From an uncultured Chthonomonadales bacterium (lineage in GTDB: Bacteria > Armatimonadota > Chthonomonadetes > Chthonomonadales > CAJBBX01), in the NCBI GenBank assembly GCA_938005745.1, contig CALLMM010000002.1, forward strand, positions 165,000 to 228,999: a stretch of DNA of 64,000 bases, given 5' to 3'. The translations under genes and the position numbers were made by a program. Below, piece after piece: positions 36,339 to 44,758 of this stretch (positions are counted from its first letter, which is position 1; the number at the start of each line of letters is the position of its first letter). The notes beneath the pieces were generated by a model. It had not been told where the DNA came from. It did not search any database and saw only the letters and a program-made list of their open reading frames with translations.

Positions 36339-36345
36339 CAAAAGC

Positions 36346-36377
36346 AAGCCGGAGAGGTCCGGAGACCTCTCCGGCTT
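36346..36377. terminator. Bidirectional hairpin terminator between convergent genes
   Basis: AAGCCGGAGAGGT-ccggag-ACCTCTCCGGCTT, 13-bp perfect stem. Confidence 0.85.
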
Positions 36378-36397
36378 GTTCCTGCCGGGATAGGCTC

Positions 36398-37699
36398 CTA
36401 CTTCGGCGGATCTACAATCGCGCCCATAAACAGGATCGCGCCCGTCTGCCGATCGCGAATCGCCAGGAAGAAGGGACGATCCACCACCATCTCAAACGGC
36501 TTTTCCGGCTCCACTGGCGCGGAGGTTACGCCCACCTCGACGCTGGTCGCCGCCGCCGCCTCCGTTCCCTCCTCGTTCACATCCAGATAGGTCTTATGCT
36601 TGACGCGGCTGATGAAGAGGCGCTGTCCGTCGTTCGCCTGATCCGGCGGGCGCATCTTCGTCAGGTTGGCGCGCCCGGGATCGAAAGCCACGCCCATCCC
36701 CAGCGCGGTCAGCGCGTCCTTCAGCATCCTCTCCTGCTCCATCTTGAAGCGTGGCAACGCGATCAGTCCCTTCTTCCGTTCCAGACGGCTCATCCAGCGG
36801 CTCCAGTTCTCCTCATTCAGCGTCTGCAGGAAAGCCGGCAGGCTGCTGCGCTTTGCCGGCAGAAAGACGCACATGCTCACTCTGCCGCTGCCGTAGGGAA
36901 GTTCAATCGCCTGGAAGGCGTCCGTCTCCAGATAGGCGAAACGCTCCTGCTGAAACATCAGCGGATGCGGTCTCGTCCTGCCGTCCGGCAGCGTGAACGG
37001 TCGGTCCGCCGTCATATTTTTCTGAAACTTCTCCGTCCACTCTCCGTGAAAATAGATCGCATTGATCAGGAACAGAACGGTCTGCCCGTCAATCCGGTCC
37101 ACGATCTGCGTGATCTTGCCTCCCGTGCTGCGGCGCACCCAGTCGTTGATGGTGGCGACGGCTCCCGGATCGTCAAAGTTGAGGGTAGTCGCCTCCGCGC
37201 CGAAATAGCGGCGGTTCGCCTGCAGAAAGTCGGGGTTGAAGTCGAATCCAGCGCGCATCCAGAGCGAGTTGGCGATGGCGAGCTTCACCTTCGGATCGGA
37301 GCTGTCCAGCAGGGCGCGCAGGGCGGCGCTGCCCCGATTGATGTCCTCCAGCGTCATCCCCTGAAGCTCCAGCGCCCTCTCCATCGCCTCCTTCGTCTCG
37401 TCGTCTGCGCCGTTATACGTCATGGTCAGCGCAAAGGCGATGCTCGACGGCGAGATGAACAGATTCTGGTCAGGCGTCTCTTTCCACAGTTCGGCGAACA
37501 GCTTGAAGCCGAACCGGTTCTGTCTCGGAGCGATCTTCGCCGACAGCTGCGGAGCCAGCGGGCTGTCGGCTCGAACAGCCAGAACGGGCGCAGGCATCTT
37601 CCTGCTCCCTCGCGCGATATAGTCGTAGACCCCGAACGTCAGCAAGCCGCCTGTGATCAGCGCGATCGTCATGAGATAGAGTTTTCCGTGGATGGTCAT
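36398..37699 (-). CDS. Serpin family protein 1, N-terminal membrane anchor/signal
   Basis: NLFISPSSIAFALTMTYNGADDETKEAM, LFLINAIYFHGEWTEKF, ISRVKHKTYLDVNEEGTEAAAATSVEV, DRPFFLAIRDRQTGAILFMGAIVDP. Confidence 0.95.
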   Translation of the reverse strand: MTIHGKLYLMTIALITGGLLTFGVYDYIARGSRKMPAPVLAVRADSPLAPQLSAKIAPRQNRFGFKLFAELWKETPDQNLFISPSSIAFALTMTYNGADDETKEAMERALELQGMTLEDINRGSAALRALLDSSDPKVKLAIANSLWMRAGFDFNPDFLQANRRYFGAEATTLNFDDPGAVATINDWVRRSTGGKITQIVDRIDGQTVLFLINAIYFHGEWTEKFQKNMTADRPFTLPDGRTRPHPLMFQQERFAYLETDAFQAIELPYGSGRVSMCVFLPAKRSSLPAFLQTLNEENWSRWMSRLERKKGLIALPRFKMEQERMLKDALTALGMGVAFDPGRANLTKMRPPDQANDGQRLFISRVKHKTYLDVNEEGTEAAAATSVEVGVTSAPVEPEKPFEMVVDRPFFLAIRDRQTGAILFMGAIVDPPK

Positions 37700-37711
37700 T
37701 CTGCTGCTCCC

Positions 37712-38959
37712 TTATGATTCCGGCTGATTGACCGTTCCCATGAACAGCGTCTCGCCGGTCGTCTCGTCGCGGATCGCGCAGAAGAAGGGGCGGTCCGCCG
37801 TAAAGGCGCGCGGCGCGCTCCGGGTCATGATCACGGCGGTCGCCCCTGCCGCCTCCGATCCCTCTTCGTTCACCTCCAGCACGGTCTTATGCTTCACCCG
37901 GCTGATCCAGAGCGGACCGGAAGCCATTGTGCCGAAGTCCGCCTGCGGGGAGAAGGCGACCGCCATCCCCATCTTCGAGAGCGTTCCGCCCAGCTCCGCC
38001 TCATACTCCAGCCTGAATCGCGGCATCGTCACCTGCAGCGGCGTCTCGCGGAAGCCGCCCATCCACCGCCTCCAGTTGTCGTCGTTGAGCTTCGACAGGA
38101 GCGCGGGCATTCCGACGCCCCGCTCCGGCAGGAACAGATAGAAGGAGAACCGCTTCCCGGCGTAGGGGATCTTCACCGCCTGAAAGCCCTCCCCCTGCAG
38201 ATGGTAGAACCTCCCGCTCTGGCGCATCATCGGGATCTGCCGGATGGTTCCGTCCGGCAGATGAAAGTCGCCCGGTCGGGTCAGCGCGGGGTCGAAGGGA
38301 CGCTCCCAGTCCGCCTTGAAGTAGATCGCGTTGGTCAGCGCAGCTACCGCATTTCGCAGATCGGCGGCGGTCAGGATTTCGCGAATCTTTCCACCGGTAC
38401 TCTTATCCACCCAGTCGTTGATCGTCGCCGGCGCCTCCGCAGACCGAAAATCGAGCGAGGCGGTCTTTGCGCCATAGAACGCGCGCGCCCGCTCCGAGAA
38501 GCCGGGAAGGTAGGTGAAGCTTCGATCCGCCCAGAGCGCATTGGCGACGCGCATCTGCACGCCGGGACCGGGGTTCTGCCAGGCGTTACGCAGGGCGTCA
38601 TACCGGCGGTTGATCTCCTCCAGCGTCCGTCCCTCGCTGTCCAGCGCGCGCAGCATCGCCGTCAGCGTCTCTCCCTGCGCGCCGTTGGCGGTCATGAAGA
38701 GCGCAAACGAGAGGCTTGCCGGCGAGAGAAAGAGATTCTTCTGCGGCTCCTCCCGCGCCAGTCGCTGTAACAGGTTCCAGCCGAAGCGCGCCCCGAAAGC
38801 CTGTGACGCCGGATCGGAAACCGGCGCCTCCTTCTGAACGGCTGTCGTCGTATCCATTTCCATACGGGTGCGGCATCCCGTGACCGACCCCCACAGACCG
38901 CCGGCTGCCAGCAGACAACCCAATCCCATCCATACAGTTCGCATCATCTTCTCCTGCAT
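37712..38959 (-). CDS. Serpin family protein 2, probable lipoprotein (start may be MRTVWMG at 38944)
   Basis: Lipobox SVTGC; NLFLSPASLSFALFMTANGAQGETLTAML, ISRVKHKTVLEVNEEGSEAAGATAVIM, DRPFFCAIRDETTGETLFMGTVNQP. Confidence 0.95.
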   Translation of the reverse strand: MQEKMMRTVWMGLGCLLAAGGLWGSVTGCRTRMEMDTTTAVQKEAPVSDPASQAFGARFGWNLLQRLAREEPQKNLFLSPASLSFALFMTANGAQGETLTAMLRALDSEGRTLEEINRRYDALRNAWQNPGPGVQMRVANALWADRSFTYLPGFSERARAFYGAKTASLDFRSAEAPATINDWVDKSTGGKIREILTAADLRNAVAALTNAIYFKADWERPFDPALTRPGDFHLPDGTIRQIPMMRQSGRFYHLQGEGFQAVKIPYAGKRFSFYLFLPERGVGMPALLSKLNDDNWRRWMGGFRETPLQVTMPRFRLEYEAELGGTLSKMGMAVAFSPQADFGTMASGPLWISRVKHKTVLEVNEEGSEAAGATAVIMTRSAPRAFTADRPFFCAIRDETTGETLFMGTVNQPES

Positions 38960-39115: not shown

Positions 39116-42100
39116 ATGCGTTACGCGATACTTGGGATCATCGGATTCTCTCTGCTGGCGGGGCTGCGCCCGGCGGAGGGACAGACACGCCCCCCTGCGC
39201 CGCCAAGAGCGCAGGAGCGTCCGCGCACGCAGAATCCGCCTCCGGCGCGCCCGCCCCGACCGCGTCTCATTGTTCCGGGCATCGGGGGCGCGCTCTCCGG
39301 CAGCCGCGCCGCCGCGCCCGAAGGTCCTGTGGTCGGTCCGCCGGGTCCGCGTCCGAACTTCCCCGCGCCCCCTCCCGGTCCCTTCCCGGCGCTGCCCGGA
39401 ACCGGGCAGGTCGCGCCGCCGGGCGTAGCGCGCCCCCTCAATCCCTTCCTCTTCGGCATGAACGTCGCCTGGGATGAGGCGGGCGGCTACGCCGGCTGGG
39501 ACCGCGACAACGGCGTTCGCGCCCGGCGGCTGGCTCAACTGCTCAAGGAGGCGGGCGTAACCAACGTGCGCGTCCGCCTGCGCTGGCAGGAGATCGAGCC
39601 GCAGCGCGGTCAGTACAACTGGCGCGCCACCGACCGCTTCCTGCGCTTTCTCGCCGATCAGGGACTGCGACCCGTCTGCCTGCTTGCCGACATTCCCGCC
39701 TGGGCGAACGAGGCGAACCCATCGCCCCAGCTCTACGCCGATGTGGGACGATTCTCCTTCGCGATCGTGAGCCGCTATCGCGGGCTGGCGCAGCACTGGG
39801 AGTTTCTGGACGCGCCCGAAGGAAAGCCGAATGCGCCGCGCCCCTTCACGCGGGAGCCGCGAGTCTATCTGCAGATGCTGCGTTCCTTCGCCGAGAACGC
39901 CCGCCGCGCCAATCCCGCCGTCCGCATCGCCATCGGACGCCTGAAACCGGAGCAGGCTCCCTTCCTCGCCGCGCTCTACGCCGCCGGAGCCAGTCCCTAC
40001 TTCGACGCCGTCGCCCTGCATCCCGGCAGCGGTCCCGGCGGACTCGATTTCGACTGGATTGACCGCTGCCGCAGTCTGATGCTCAACAACAACGACGCGG
40101 CGAAGACCGTCTGGATCACCGAATGGGGCTGGACGATCCCCCCGGATCAGCCCGACTCCCTCAGTGAGGCGCAGCATGCCCGCCTGATCCGCAATACGCT
40201 GATCTCCATGCAGGCGCGCCCCTATATCACGCAGTCGAGCTACCAGATCTTCAATACGACCGCCGCCCTGGATCGCAGCCTGCGTCTGTTCAGTCTCCTC
40301 TCCTCCACGCTGATCCCGCGCGCAGGCTACGCCGCCTTTCGAGAGGTCGCCCTCGGTCAGCCGATGCCGACCGCCACGCCGGGTTTCCGCCGGGTTCCTC
40401 TGATCAGCGGGTTTCCAATCGGAGAGGAGTCGGGCGGGAGCGGCTCCGGCTACCGTGTGCGGGGCATCCCGGCGAACGTGACGGTCGAAGCCAATCGCCC
40501 CGGCGAGCCGCTGCCCCCGCTCTGGGAGGGGTATGTTCTGGGCGGCGATCCGGGCATTCTGTCCGGCTTTGAGGGAGCCGTCCCGCGCCTGCAGGCGGTT
40601 GGCGCGAAACTGGTGCGGATGGACCCCTTCCCCAATCCCGGCATGGTCGCCGCCTCCGGGGGCGCGGCTCCGGCATCGGCGCAGCCCGCCGACTTCGACG
40701 CCTCCCGTATAGATTTCCGCTACGCCGATGCCCTCGTTGATCTGCTGGCGCGGGCGGGCGCGAAACCGATGTTCAACTTCGCCACCATGCCGACCGCGCT
40801 CTCCTCCCCGACCGGCAACCCTCGCCTTCCGCGCAGTCCGCAGGAGTGGGCGGGATTCGTCGGGGCGGTAGTCCGACGCTACAACCTCGAGCAGAAGCGC
40901 GGCATCGTCTACTGGGAACTCTCCCACCAGCCCAACACGGGTGACTTTACGCTTGCGGAGTGGCTGCGCTTCTATGAGACGTTCGCCCGCGCCGTGACTG
41001 CCGCCGATCCGAACGCAAAGGTGGGCGGTCCGGCTGCCGCCGCCTTCGGGGAGGAGTGGTTGAGCGGACTGGCGGACTACTGCGCGAAGAACAGCGTGCC
41101 GCTTCACTTCCTGAGCTGGCAGGCGTACAACCAGTCCCCGGCGGAGTACGCCCGTCAGGCGGAGACGGCGCGCGGCATCCTGCGCCGCCATCCCTCGCTG
41201 GGCAACGTCGAGTTGATCCTCGGAGAGTGGAACGCCAGCGCCGCCGCCTCGCCCGACAACGACGGTCTGTTTGCCGCGTCTCATGCGCTGTCGGTGGTGG
41301 AGCAGCTTGCGAAGGCTGCGCCGGTGCGGTCGCTGTTCTATGCGGTGAAAGACGGTCCCAATTTCCGCGATCCGGGCGTTCGGTTCTGGGGGCGCTGGGG
41401 AATGCTGACCTATGACAACCGCCCGAAAGCGGTCTACAACGCCTTCGTCATCCTCAGGCGCATGGAGGGGCTGCGCCTGCCCGCTGTCAGTGATGACAGC
41501 CTGATTCGCGTCATGGCGACGCGCGGTCCCAACAGCGTGCGCGTGCTGCTCTGGAGCTACCCGACCGACCCGAACCGCAGCCAGCTCGCCGATACGCAGG
41601 TGCGTCTGCAGGTGAGAAGCCTGCCCTGGACGACCGGAACGCGCGGCGCGCAGTGGCTGATAGACACGCTGCGCTCCAACCCGCTGGACAACCCGGCAAG
41701 CGAGAACCTGGCGCAGATCGCCTCGTTCCAGAGCGCGCCGGGCGATCTGGAGATACCGATCATCCTTTCGCCCTACGGCGCGACGCTGATCGAGCTGACC
41801 CCGGCGCGCTCCCTGCCGGTTGAGGTCGCCGTCGAGACGCCGCGATATCTGGTCTACAGCGGGGCGTCGTTCCCGCTGATCTCTACCGTTCGCAACCTGT
41901 CCGCACAGCCGCAGACCGTCGCCTTCACGCTGACCGGCAGCGACCCGGCGGTGCTGAATCCCGCCGGAATCCGCACGCGGCTGACGCTTCGCCCCAACGA
42001 GGTGCGCCAGGTTCGCTACAATATCCCGGCAACGCTCAACCGCGCCGACACGCAGCAGTTTTTCCAGGTGGCGGCGGGAGAGGCGACCGCCAGCCTTGCG

Positions 42101-43045
42101 GTTCGCTTCGCGCTGCCGATCCATGCCCGGCTGGAGACAGTGCGGGCGGACATCCTGCCGCCGGGCGGAACGCTTGCGAACCTGCCGGCGACCGTTCCCG
42201 TCCGCGCCGTAGTGGAGAACCGCTCCGATGCGCCGATCAGGGTCGGGCTGGTCGCGGGACGCACTACCCGCACGCTCAGCCTGCCCGCCGGACAGCAGGA
42301 AGTCGCCGTCGTTCCAGTTCCCGTCCCCGAAGCCGTTCCCGGTAACTACTCCGTCCCGATCCGGGTGATGCTGGAGGAGCAGAGCGTCCTGACCCTCAAC
42401 GCGCAGGTGAGCGTCCCGGCGATCTGCCGCTTCGCGGCGCGAACGCCGCGCATCAACGGCGATCTCTCCGAGTGGACGGACGCCGTTCCCATCGCGCTCG
42501 ATCGGATGGAGATGTTCCGGGGCAGACGATGGAACGGCATGAGCGATCTCTCCGCGCAGGCGTTCGCGATGTGGGACGCGCAGAACCTCTATCTCGCCCT
42601 GAGCGTCTCCGACGACACCCATTTTCAGCCCTTCTCCCTCAACGACATCGCGCGGGGCGACTCCGTGCAGTTCGCCCTGGACACGCGCCGGTCCGCCCGC
42701 TCCCCCGCCGGAGGCTATGATGAGAACGTCTATGAGTTCATCATGGCGAACGGGACGACGCTGCCCTCCGTCCTCTACCGGATCACCGGAGGAAGGGGTC
42801 GCGCGCCTGAACTGGTTCGCGCGGCGCAGGTCGCGACTCAGCGCGTCGGCAGCCGCACGCTCTACGAGGTCGCGATCCCCTGGACGGAGCTGTCGCCCAT
42901 GCGTCCGGCGGAGGGCGCGCTGGCGGGAATCGCGATACGGATCAACGACAGCGACGGCGAGGCGGTCGGTCAGATGGAGTGGGGCGCCGGTCTGAGTCCG
43001 TCCCGGCAGCCCGGTCAGTTCATCGGTCTGCGGCTGGTGAAGTAG
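39116..43045 (+). CDS. Large secreted protein: Pro-rich linker, two GH39-like/GH-A clan TIM-barrel domains, C-terminal CBM9-like domain
   Basis: Signal MRYAILGIIGFSLLAGLRPAEGQ; domain 1 FGMNVAWDEAGG...VWITEWGW; domain 2 RIDFRYADALVDLLARAGAKPMFNF...LILGEWNAS; C-term PRINGDLSEWTDAVPIALDR...AMWDAQNLYLALSVSDDTHFQPF CBM9-like. Confidence 0.82.
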   Translation: MRYAILGIIGFSLLAGLRPAEGQTRPPAPPRAQERPRTQNPPPARPPRPRLIVPGIGGALSGSRAAAPEGPVVGPPGPRPNFPAPPPGPFPALPGTGQVAPPGVARPLNPFLFGMNVAWDEAGGYAGWDRDNGVRARRLAQLLKEAGVTNVRVRLRWQEIEPQRGQYNWRATDRFLRFLADQGLRPVCLLADIPAWANEANPSPQLYADVGRFSFAIVSRYRGLAQHWEFLDAPEGKPNAPRPFTREPRVYLQMLRSFAENARRANPAVRIAIGRLKPEQAPFLAALYAAGASPYFDAVALHPGSGPGGLDFDWIDRCRSLMLNNNDAAKTVWITEWGWTIPPDQPDSLSEAQHARLIRNTLISMQARPYITQSSYQIFNTTAALDRSLRLFSLLSSTLIPRAGYAAFREVALGQPMPTATPGFRRVPLISGFPIGEESGGSGSGYRVRGIPANVTVEANRPGEPLPPLWEGYVLGGDPGILSGFEGAVPRLQAVGAKLVRMDPFPNPGMVAASGGAAPASAQPADFDASRIDFRYADALVDLLARAGAKPMFNFATMPTALSSPTGNPRLPRSPQEWAGFVGAVVRRYNLEQKRGIVYWELSHQPNTGDFTLAEWLRFYETFARAVTAADPNAKVGGPAAAAFGEEWLSGLADYCAKNSVPLHFLSWQAYNQSPAEYARQAETARGILRRHPSLGNVELILGEWNASAAASPDNDGLFAASHALSVVEQLAKAAPVRSLFYAVKDGPNFRDPGVRFWGRWGMLTYDNRPKAVYNAFVILRRMEGLRLPAVSDDSLIRVMATRGPNSVRVLLWSYPTDPNRSQLADTQVRLQVRSLPWTTGTRGAQWLIDTLRSNPLDNPASENLAQIASFQSAPGDLEIPIILSPYGATLIELTPARSLPVEVAVETPRYLVYSGASFPLISTVRNLSAQPQTVAFTLTGSDPAVLNPAGIRTRLTLRPNEVRQVRYNIPATLNRADTQQFFQVAAGEATASLAVRFALPIHARLETVRADILPPGGTLANLPATVPVRAVVENRSDAPIRVGLVAGRTTRTLSLPAGQQEVAVVPVPVPEAVPGNYSVPIRVMLEEQSVLTLNAQVSVPAICRFAARTPRINGDLSEWTDAVPIALDRMEMFRGRRWNGMSDLSAQAFAMWDAQNLYLALSVSDDTHFQPFSLNDIARGDSVQFALDTRRSARSPAGGYDENVYEFIMANGTTLPSVLYRITGGRGRAPELVRAAQVATQRVGSRTLYEVAIPWTELSPMRPAEGALAGIAIRINDSDGEAVGQMEWGAGLSPSRQPGQFIGLRLVK

Positions 43046-43765: not shown

Positions 43766-44758
43766 GTGAACGACGCTCTGATCGCCGCCTGTCTGCAGGG
43801 AGACCTGCCGGGGGTGCGCGAATCCCTGGACGGAGGCGCAGAGACCGAGACCTCGCTGGAGAACGGCATCACGCCCCTGATGATCGCCTCGGCAAACGGA
43901 TATCGGGAGATCGCGGAGCTTCTGCTGGAGCGCGGCGCCGATATCCATGCGATGGCGGAGGGTCCGATCAATGCGCTGTCTCTGGCGGTGATGGGCGATT
44001 CCCTGCCGGTGGTGGAAGTTCTGATTGCACGCGGGGCGCAGGTGAACGCGGCTCTGGCGATGGAGATGCGCGCGTTGATGCTCGCCGCCAGCCGTGAACA
44101 GCCCGCCATCGTGCGCGCCCTGCTGGCGGCGCATGCCGAGACGGAGGCGCGGGATCACCGGGGCTGGACGGCGTTGATGTTTGCCGCGCAGGAGGGCAGC
44201 CCGGAATCGGCAAGGCTCCTGCTGGAGGCGGGCGCAGATGCGAACGCGCGCGACGTGGTCGGCTGTACGCCGCTGCACCATGCGGCGCGCACCGGACAGA
44301 TCGCGGTCGCGCGTCTGCTGCTGGATCACGGGGCGGAGGCGGACGCGCAGGCGGACTGGTTCACGCCGCTCATCGCCGCCGCCTCCGTCGGACAGAACGA
44401 GATGGTCGCGCTGCTGCTGGATCACGGGGCGGAGGTAGACCGGCTCGACCGCACGGACGGCTACTCCGCGCTGATGATGGCGGCGTATCACGGTCAGACC
44501 GAGACGATCCGCCTGCTGCTGTCGCGCGGAGCCGATGTCGATCTGACCACCGAATGGTTCGTCACCGCGCTTCAGATGGCGGAGCGCGCCGGACACAGAC
44601 GCGCCGCAGAGGTCTTACGGCAGGCGGGCGCGCGGGAGCCGAAAGAGCTGCCGCCGCTGGTGGTCCTGCCCTGGGGCGTGCAGGGAGATCCGATGCAGCG
44701 CGCCGCCTACGAGGCGATGCTCAGAAAGAGACAACAGGAAGACGCAGAACCATCCTGA
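43766..44758 (+). CDS. Ankyrin repeat protein (about 9 repeats)
   Basis: Serial ANK units, e.g. NGITPLMIASANGYREIAELLLERGADIHA, GCTPLHHAARTGQIAVARLLLDHGAEADA; GTG start; no signal peptide. Confidence 0.92.
   Translation: MNDALIAACLQGDLPGVRESLDGGAETETSLENGITPLMIASANGYREIAELLLERGADIHAMAEGPINALSLAVMGDSLPVVEVLIARGAQVNAALAMEMRALMLAASREQPAIVRALLAAHAETEARDHRGWTALMFAAQEGSPESARLLLEAGADANARDVVGCTPLHHAARTGQIAVARLLLDHGAEADAQADWFTPLIAAASVGQNEMVALLLDHGAEVDRLDRTDGYSALMMAAYHGQTETIRLLLSRGADVDLTTEWFVTALQMAERAGHRRAAEVLRQAGAREPKELPPLVVLPWGVQGDPMQRAAYEAMLRKRQQEDAEPS

Follow-up and report, generated by a model that had tools for sequence, protein, structure and literature searches.

The window, by which we mean the whole stretch of 64,000 nucleotides that was analysed, contains two adjoining serpin genes at 36398-38959. 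They lie head to tail on the minus strand, in the order serpin 2, serpin 1, terminator (Table 1). The first-pass annotation had described two adjacent full-length serpins, and both open reading frames were found where it had placed them. The matches to the Pfam profile PF00079 (cut-off: 27 bits) covered the whole profile of 370 positions in both proteins, with E-values of 9e-116 (serpin 1) and 6e-106 (serpin 2). Full-length alignments to solved serpins were also obtained for both. By the full-length profile match, both proteins belong to the serpin superfamily (PF00079, MEROPS I4). AlphaFold2 models from three-row alignments had pLDDT values of 34 and 33, too low to inform on the fold. The two proteins were 43% identical over 392 columns and are the only serpins found in the 4.26-Mb genome.

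Table 1. Features of the serpin locus (positions in the window) and serpin arrays of the phylum (genome handles or genome:contig:positions)
Feature	Position	Strand	Description
Serpin 1	36398-37699	-	433 aa, N-terminus of signal-anchor type; PF00079 387.5 bits, profile 3-370; best solved relative miropin 5ncs, 248.9 bits
Serpin 2	37712-38959	-	415 aa from annotated ATG, lipoprotein-type, promoter-proximal; PF00079 355.1 bits, profile 4-370; best solved relative conserpin 5cdx, 259.7 bits
Intergenic gap	37700-37711	-	12 nt with Shine-Dalgarno-like GGGAG, from serpin 2 TAA to serpin 1 ATG
Intrinsic terminator (predicted)	36345-36378	-	15-bp stem, -40.8 kcal/mol, z -7.6; between the convergent serpin operon and P-type ATPase gene
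Serpin 1 hinge and reactive-centre loop	36512-36577	-	EEGTEAAAATSVEVGVTSAPVE; miropin-like V-T-S
Serpin 2 hinge and reactive-centre loop	37820-37870	-	EEGSEAAGATAVIMTRSAP; Arg at hinge-counted P2, place of miropin Lys335
Serpin 1 hydrophobic stretch	37625-37681	-	LYLMTIALITGGLLTFGVY, residues 7-25, 19 residues, mean Kyte-Doolittle 1.73
Serpin 2 lipoprotein signal peptide (predicted)	38870-38947	-	M-R-TVWMGLGCLLAAGGLWGSVTG/C; from sequence, start-site context and lipobox pattern
Array locus L070, apparently fast-changing loops	G216:C94:12057-16847
Array locus L069, apparently fast-changing loops	G250:C304:415-4023
Array locus L076, apparently fast-changing loops	G110:C1:537008-539441
Array locus L072, apparently fast-changing loops	G051:C1:717739-720081
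Serpin pairs	G051, G052, G058, G083, G107, G110, G206, G215		among the matches listed
Larger serpin arrays	G247, G250, G216		three, three and four serpins; among the matches listed

The two genes form one operon and are possibly translationally coupled, because the short gap between them carries a Shine-Dalgarno-like motif. The strong terminator 3' of serpin 1 is predicted to work on both strands and would be common to the convergent P-type ATPase gene. Upstream, the operon is bordered by a divergent gene for a glycoside-hydrolase-39/CBM9 protein (39116-43042, plus strand), an exported-looking product of 1309 aa with glycoside hydrolase 39 and CBM9-like domains. Further along the plus strand (43766-44755), a 330-aa protein consists nearly entirely of ankyrin repeats (Ank_2, 273 bits). 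No protease gene was found beside the pair among the near neighbours tested.

The N-termini of the two proteins differ in type. That of serpin 2 (M-R-TVWMGLGCLLAAGGLWGS-VTGC) has the build of a bacterial lipoprotein: a short basic n-region is followed by a hydrophobic stretch and, by pattern match, the lipobox VTGC with its Cys near the N-terminus; lipidation is predicted. A ribosome-binding site (AGGAG, at about 38949-38953) lies between the first ATG and the codons for Met5 and Met6. Since it is directly upstream of these codons, Met5 or Met6 is the likelier start. In serpin 1, sequence inspection and pattern match showed no lipobox at the N-terminus, and no signal-peptidase I site was obvious there. 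Its hydrophobic stretch may be a signal anchor, of ambiguous topology as positive charges flank it on both sides. The genome encodes two Omp85 proteins, which indicates an outer membrane, and a LolA match was marginal. Both serpins would be exported at least as far as the periplasmic side. Their placement on different envelope faces, suggested in the first-pass annotation, is at most a possibility.

The different anchors claimed in the first-pass annotation are thus borne out as N-terminal types, and differential anchoring is a fair prediction. Membrane-anchored prokaryotic serpins have already been described (PMC8233489). Precedents for a difference in anchoring come from siropins 1 and 2 of Eubacterium siraeum and from a three-serpin array of the phylum (G250), which mixes two lipobox members with one that has no lipobox. 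The siropins are differently located paralogues of one bacterium, 60% identical, one predicted to be intracellular and one secreted; the two share a preference for neutrophil elastase and proteinase 3, and a tandem or operon arrangement is not mentioned in the text of that paper (PMC5127057). The window pair, in contrast, is 43% identical, and both of its members are predicted to be exported.

The hinges (P17-P8) are intact and made of small residues in both proteins: EEGTEAAAAT in serpin 1 and EEGSEAAGAT in serpin 2. The inhibitory hinge motif is ExGTEAAAA (PMC8233489), and both proteins follow the pattern E-x-G-T/S-E-A-A-x-A-T. The loops likewise span about 17 residues between P17 and P1 in both, serpin 1 being in the miropin register and serpin 2 at conserpin length. 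Hinge and loop sequences were exactly as first quoted, so that the description of kept inhibitory hinges and diverging loops stands. Serpin 2 had also been described as one residue shorter in the loop, which is true on the hinge side when the loops are aligned on S-A-P. On the far side, the distance from P8 to the D-R-P-F strand was 14 residues in serpin 2 and 21 in serpin 1.

Counted from P17, the P4-P3' residues (slash between P1 and P1') were V-G-V-T/S-A-P in serpin 1 and M-T-R-S/A-P-R in serpin 2, compared with M-V-K-T/S-S-P in miropin and I-V-P-R/S-P-P in conserpin. Miropin of Tannerella forsythia (PDB 5ncs/5nct/5ncu/5ncw) is the best solved relative of serpin 1 and shares its hinge and loop register. 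It also has a basic residue at the hinge-counted P2, as does serpin 2. Conserpin, a synthetic consensus serpin (PDB 5cdx), is the best solved relative of serpin 2 and has a loop of equal length, but its Arg stands at P1 and that of serpin 2 at P2. Among the solved-structure sequences found with the miropin loop, three miropin chains ended after Val334, Lys335 and Thr336, beside an intact chain. The bonds next to the miropin-type site are possible cleavage sites in the pair by homology.

This qualifies the trypsin-like Arg-Ser scissile bond proposed for serpin 2 in the first-pass annotation, which had also suggested aligning the loops to characterised serpins to assign P1. In that alignment, the hinge count puts the canonical P1 at Ser and the Arg at P2. 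A miropin-like trypsin bait is nevertheless plausible, because the Arg aligns with Lys335 of miropin, where one of the three bonds cleaved in the solved chains lies. Judged by homology, Val-Thr or Thr-Ser in serpin 1 and Arg-Ser in serpin 2 are usable bait bonds. The Val/Thr bait of serpin 1 would point to elastase- or subtilisin-like enzymes. The comparison supports two inhibitory-type serpins with differing anchors and P1 regions. Miropin itself is a lone serpin from a host-associated bacterium, whereas the window has an operon with two, which differ in bait and N-terminus.

From the observed gene identities, operon layout, hinges, loop sequences and N-terminal types, we infer with a probability of about 0.7 an operon of two exported, envelope-held inhibitory serpins of the miropin/conserpin type, which guard the envelope with different baits. 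The lipoprotein serpin 2 would be made first from the two-gene operon and the signal-anchored serpin 1 second. The N-terminus of each would tether it to the cell envelope, with the metastable reactive-centre loop exposed. When a protease cuts the loop, the cleaved loop would insert into beta-sheet A and the protease would be trapped covalently (suicide-substrate mechanism). The Val-Thr-Ser bait of serpin 1 would suit elastase- or subtilisin-like enzymes, and the Thr-Arg-Ser bait of serpin 2 trypsin-like ones. In this way, the pair would shield the proteins of the envelope both from serine proteases that the cell itself exports and from those of its surroundings.

A search of the genome for secreted serine proteases, which had been suggested at the outset, gave candidates. 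Five S8 subtilases were found, of which at least four were exported-looking with an intact catalytic GTSMA motif, several having signal-like N-termini. The several trypsin-fold proteases were all DegP-like (DegP-type S1) or short Trypsin_2 proteins; to our knowledge, neither group is Arg-specific. The S8 subtilases and the DegP/Trypsin_2 proteins are candidate endogenous targets of the pair. As no Arg-specific secreted trypsin was evident among the trypsin-fold proteases of the genome, the target of serpin 2 may be external. At G000:C11:73760-75189, two adjoining Trypsin_2 proteins have similar N-terminal membrane segments; the second has no GNSGG and may be catalytically dead.

The two baits may also mean less than they seem to. 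At least three neighbouring bonds are used in miropin, and the V-T-S of serpin 1 aligns with the K-T-S of miropin. Both serpins could hence be inhibitors of broad range that, like miropin, offer several bonds and whose targets overlap. They would be kept for dosage or redundancy and not for a division of labour, and the difference in anchors would be incidental. The divergence of the loops fits this as well. Their gapped identity was 0.36 at a body identity of 0.43, which is average: 47% of 518 cross-genome pairs with a like body identity had loops as low or lower. The idea that the loops of this pair are unusually divergent was rejected on this basis; their divergence is normal for the age of the pair. 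What speaks against overlapping targets is that Val/Thr and Arg are baits of different kinds and that R-S loops recur in related serpins scattered over the tree (L003, L006, L007, L047, L070 and L086). We regard such redundancy as a real but minority possibility.

That one or both proteins are non-inhibitory, with a role as substrate, chaperone or storage protein, is quite unlikely. Some serpins are of this kind, and serpin 2 has a Gly at P10 and a short loop. However, the P17-P8 residues are small and inhibitory-like in both proteins, the loop of serpin 2 has the length of the conserpin loop, and alpha-1-antitrypsin also has Gly at P10. The preferred reading remains that of two envelope-held inhibitors with different baits.

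The descent of the pair is less clear. In a 67-row tree, serpin 1 grouped with L084 of another family (95/89) and serpin 2 was not placed. This favours two serpins of different descent that came to adjoin, with no local duplication. On the other hand, the best match of serpin 2 within the sequence set was serpin 1 (44%), and a joint clade of the two was not rejected (p-AU 0.236). We consider separate descent somewhat short of an even chance. A search of genome contigs for related loci returned one relative only, from a Krumholzibacteriia MAG. This serpin (L009, JAQTVX010000017.1), from another phylum, has a distal loop, EPEKPFEM, nearly exactly as in serpin 1 and is 49% identical to it overall; horizontal transfer is a possible explanation of the likeness.

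The pair is real, but it is of a kind already known, as both serpins and side-by-side serpins are common in the phylum. The first-pass annotation had called bacterial serpins uncommon and paired, differently anchored ones notable. The rarity was not borne out in this phylum, where 127 of 291 genomes had a serpin (97 of 194 among those of good quality). Adjacent serpins were present in at least 12 genomes among the matches listed, this one and at least 11 others, and at least one other array (G250) mixes anchors. Lipobox serpins were common, and TM-type N-termini occurred in L047, L048 and L051. In the genome's own family, serpins were found in 6 of 12 genomes; one of these (G008) had two, each on its own contig, with a T-S loop in the one and an R-S loop in the other. 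Except in two close relatives, no conserved gene neighbourhood was found around related serpins, and synteny therefore gave no partner protease. A literature search for bacterial serpins in tandem or operon arrangement returned nothing on this pair or phylum, and one for serpins with Armatimonadetes returned nothing relevant.

Loops appeared to be constant in some lineages. The V-G-(I/V)-T-S loop type of serpin 1 was widespread and constant within genera. In genus g92 (L029-L037, L042; nine genomes examined), for example, each genome had one serpin, with the near-identical loop SVQVGITSVQQPRPPF and a single P-to-Q change in L042, while the serpin bodies were 74-94% identical. This strong constraint suggests a fixed target.

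The tandem arrays of the phylum (one of four, two of three, eight pairs) resemble the window pair in having adjoining same-strand serpins with divergent loops, but they are not orthologous to it and their loop sequences differ. Young arrays were compared by pN/pS ratios computed from pN and pS. In seven arrays with a body identity of at least 55% (nine same-genome pairs), the ratio was about 0.3-1.3 in the loop versus 0.2-0.6 in the body, values to be read with the loops being short, some pS near saturation and the loop alignments uncertain. The loop value was the higher one in eight of the nine pairs (G110: 1.3 vs 0.19; G051: 1.0 vs 0.35). In six between-genome pairs used as controls, the loop ratio was 0-0.3 and overall no higher than that of the body. 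As a lead only, loop amino acids in young tandem arrays would change much faster than the body, and orthologues would keep their loops. A rather tentative reading is that these arrays are small inhibitor repertoires in which, much as in the serpin clusters of animals, bait loops diversify after local duplication by relaxed or positive selection around a conserved body. If this is true, the window pair is an old case with two members.

Little is known about the natural roles of serpins in bacteria (PMC8233489). As this genome has exactly two, encoded in a single operon and unlike in bait and anchor, it offers a tractable system in which to ask what serpins guard against. The threat could come from within, in the form of subtilases and DegP enzymes that the cell itself exports, or from proteases of outside origin. 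Moreover, the recurrence of tandem arrays in which the loops apparently change fast and the hinges are conserved suggests that bacterial serpins also diversify by duplication, a pattern that is testable by sequence analysis alone.
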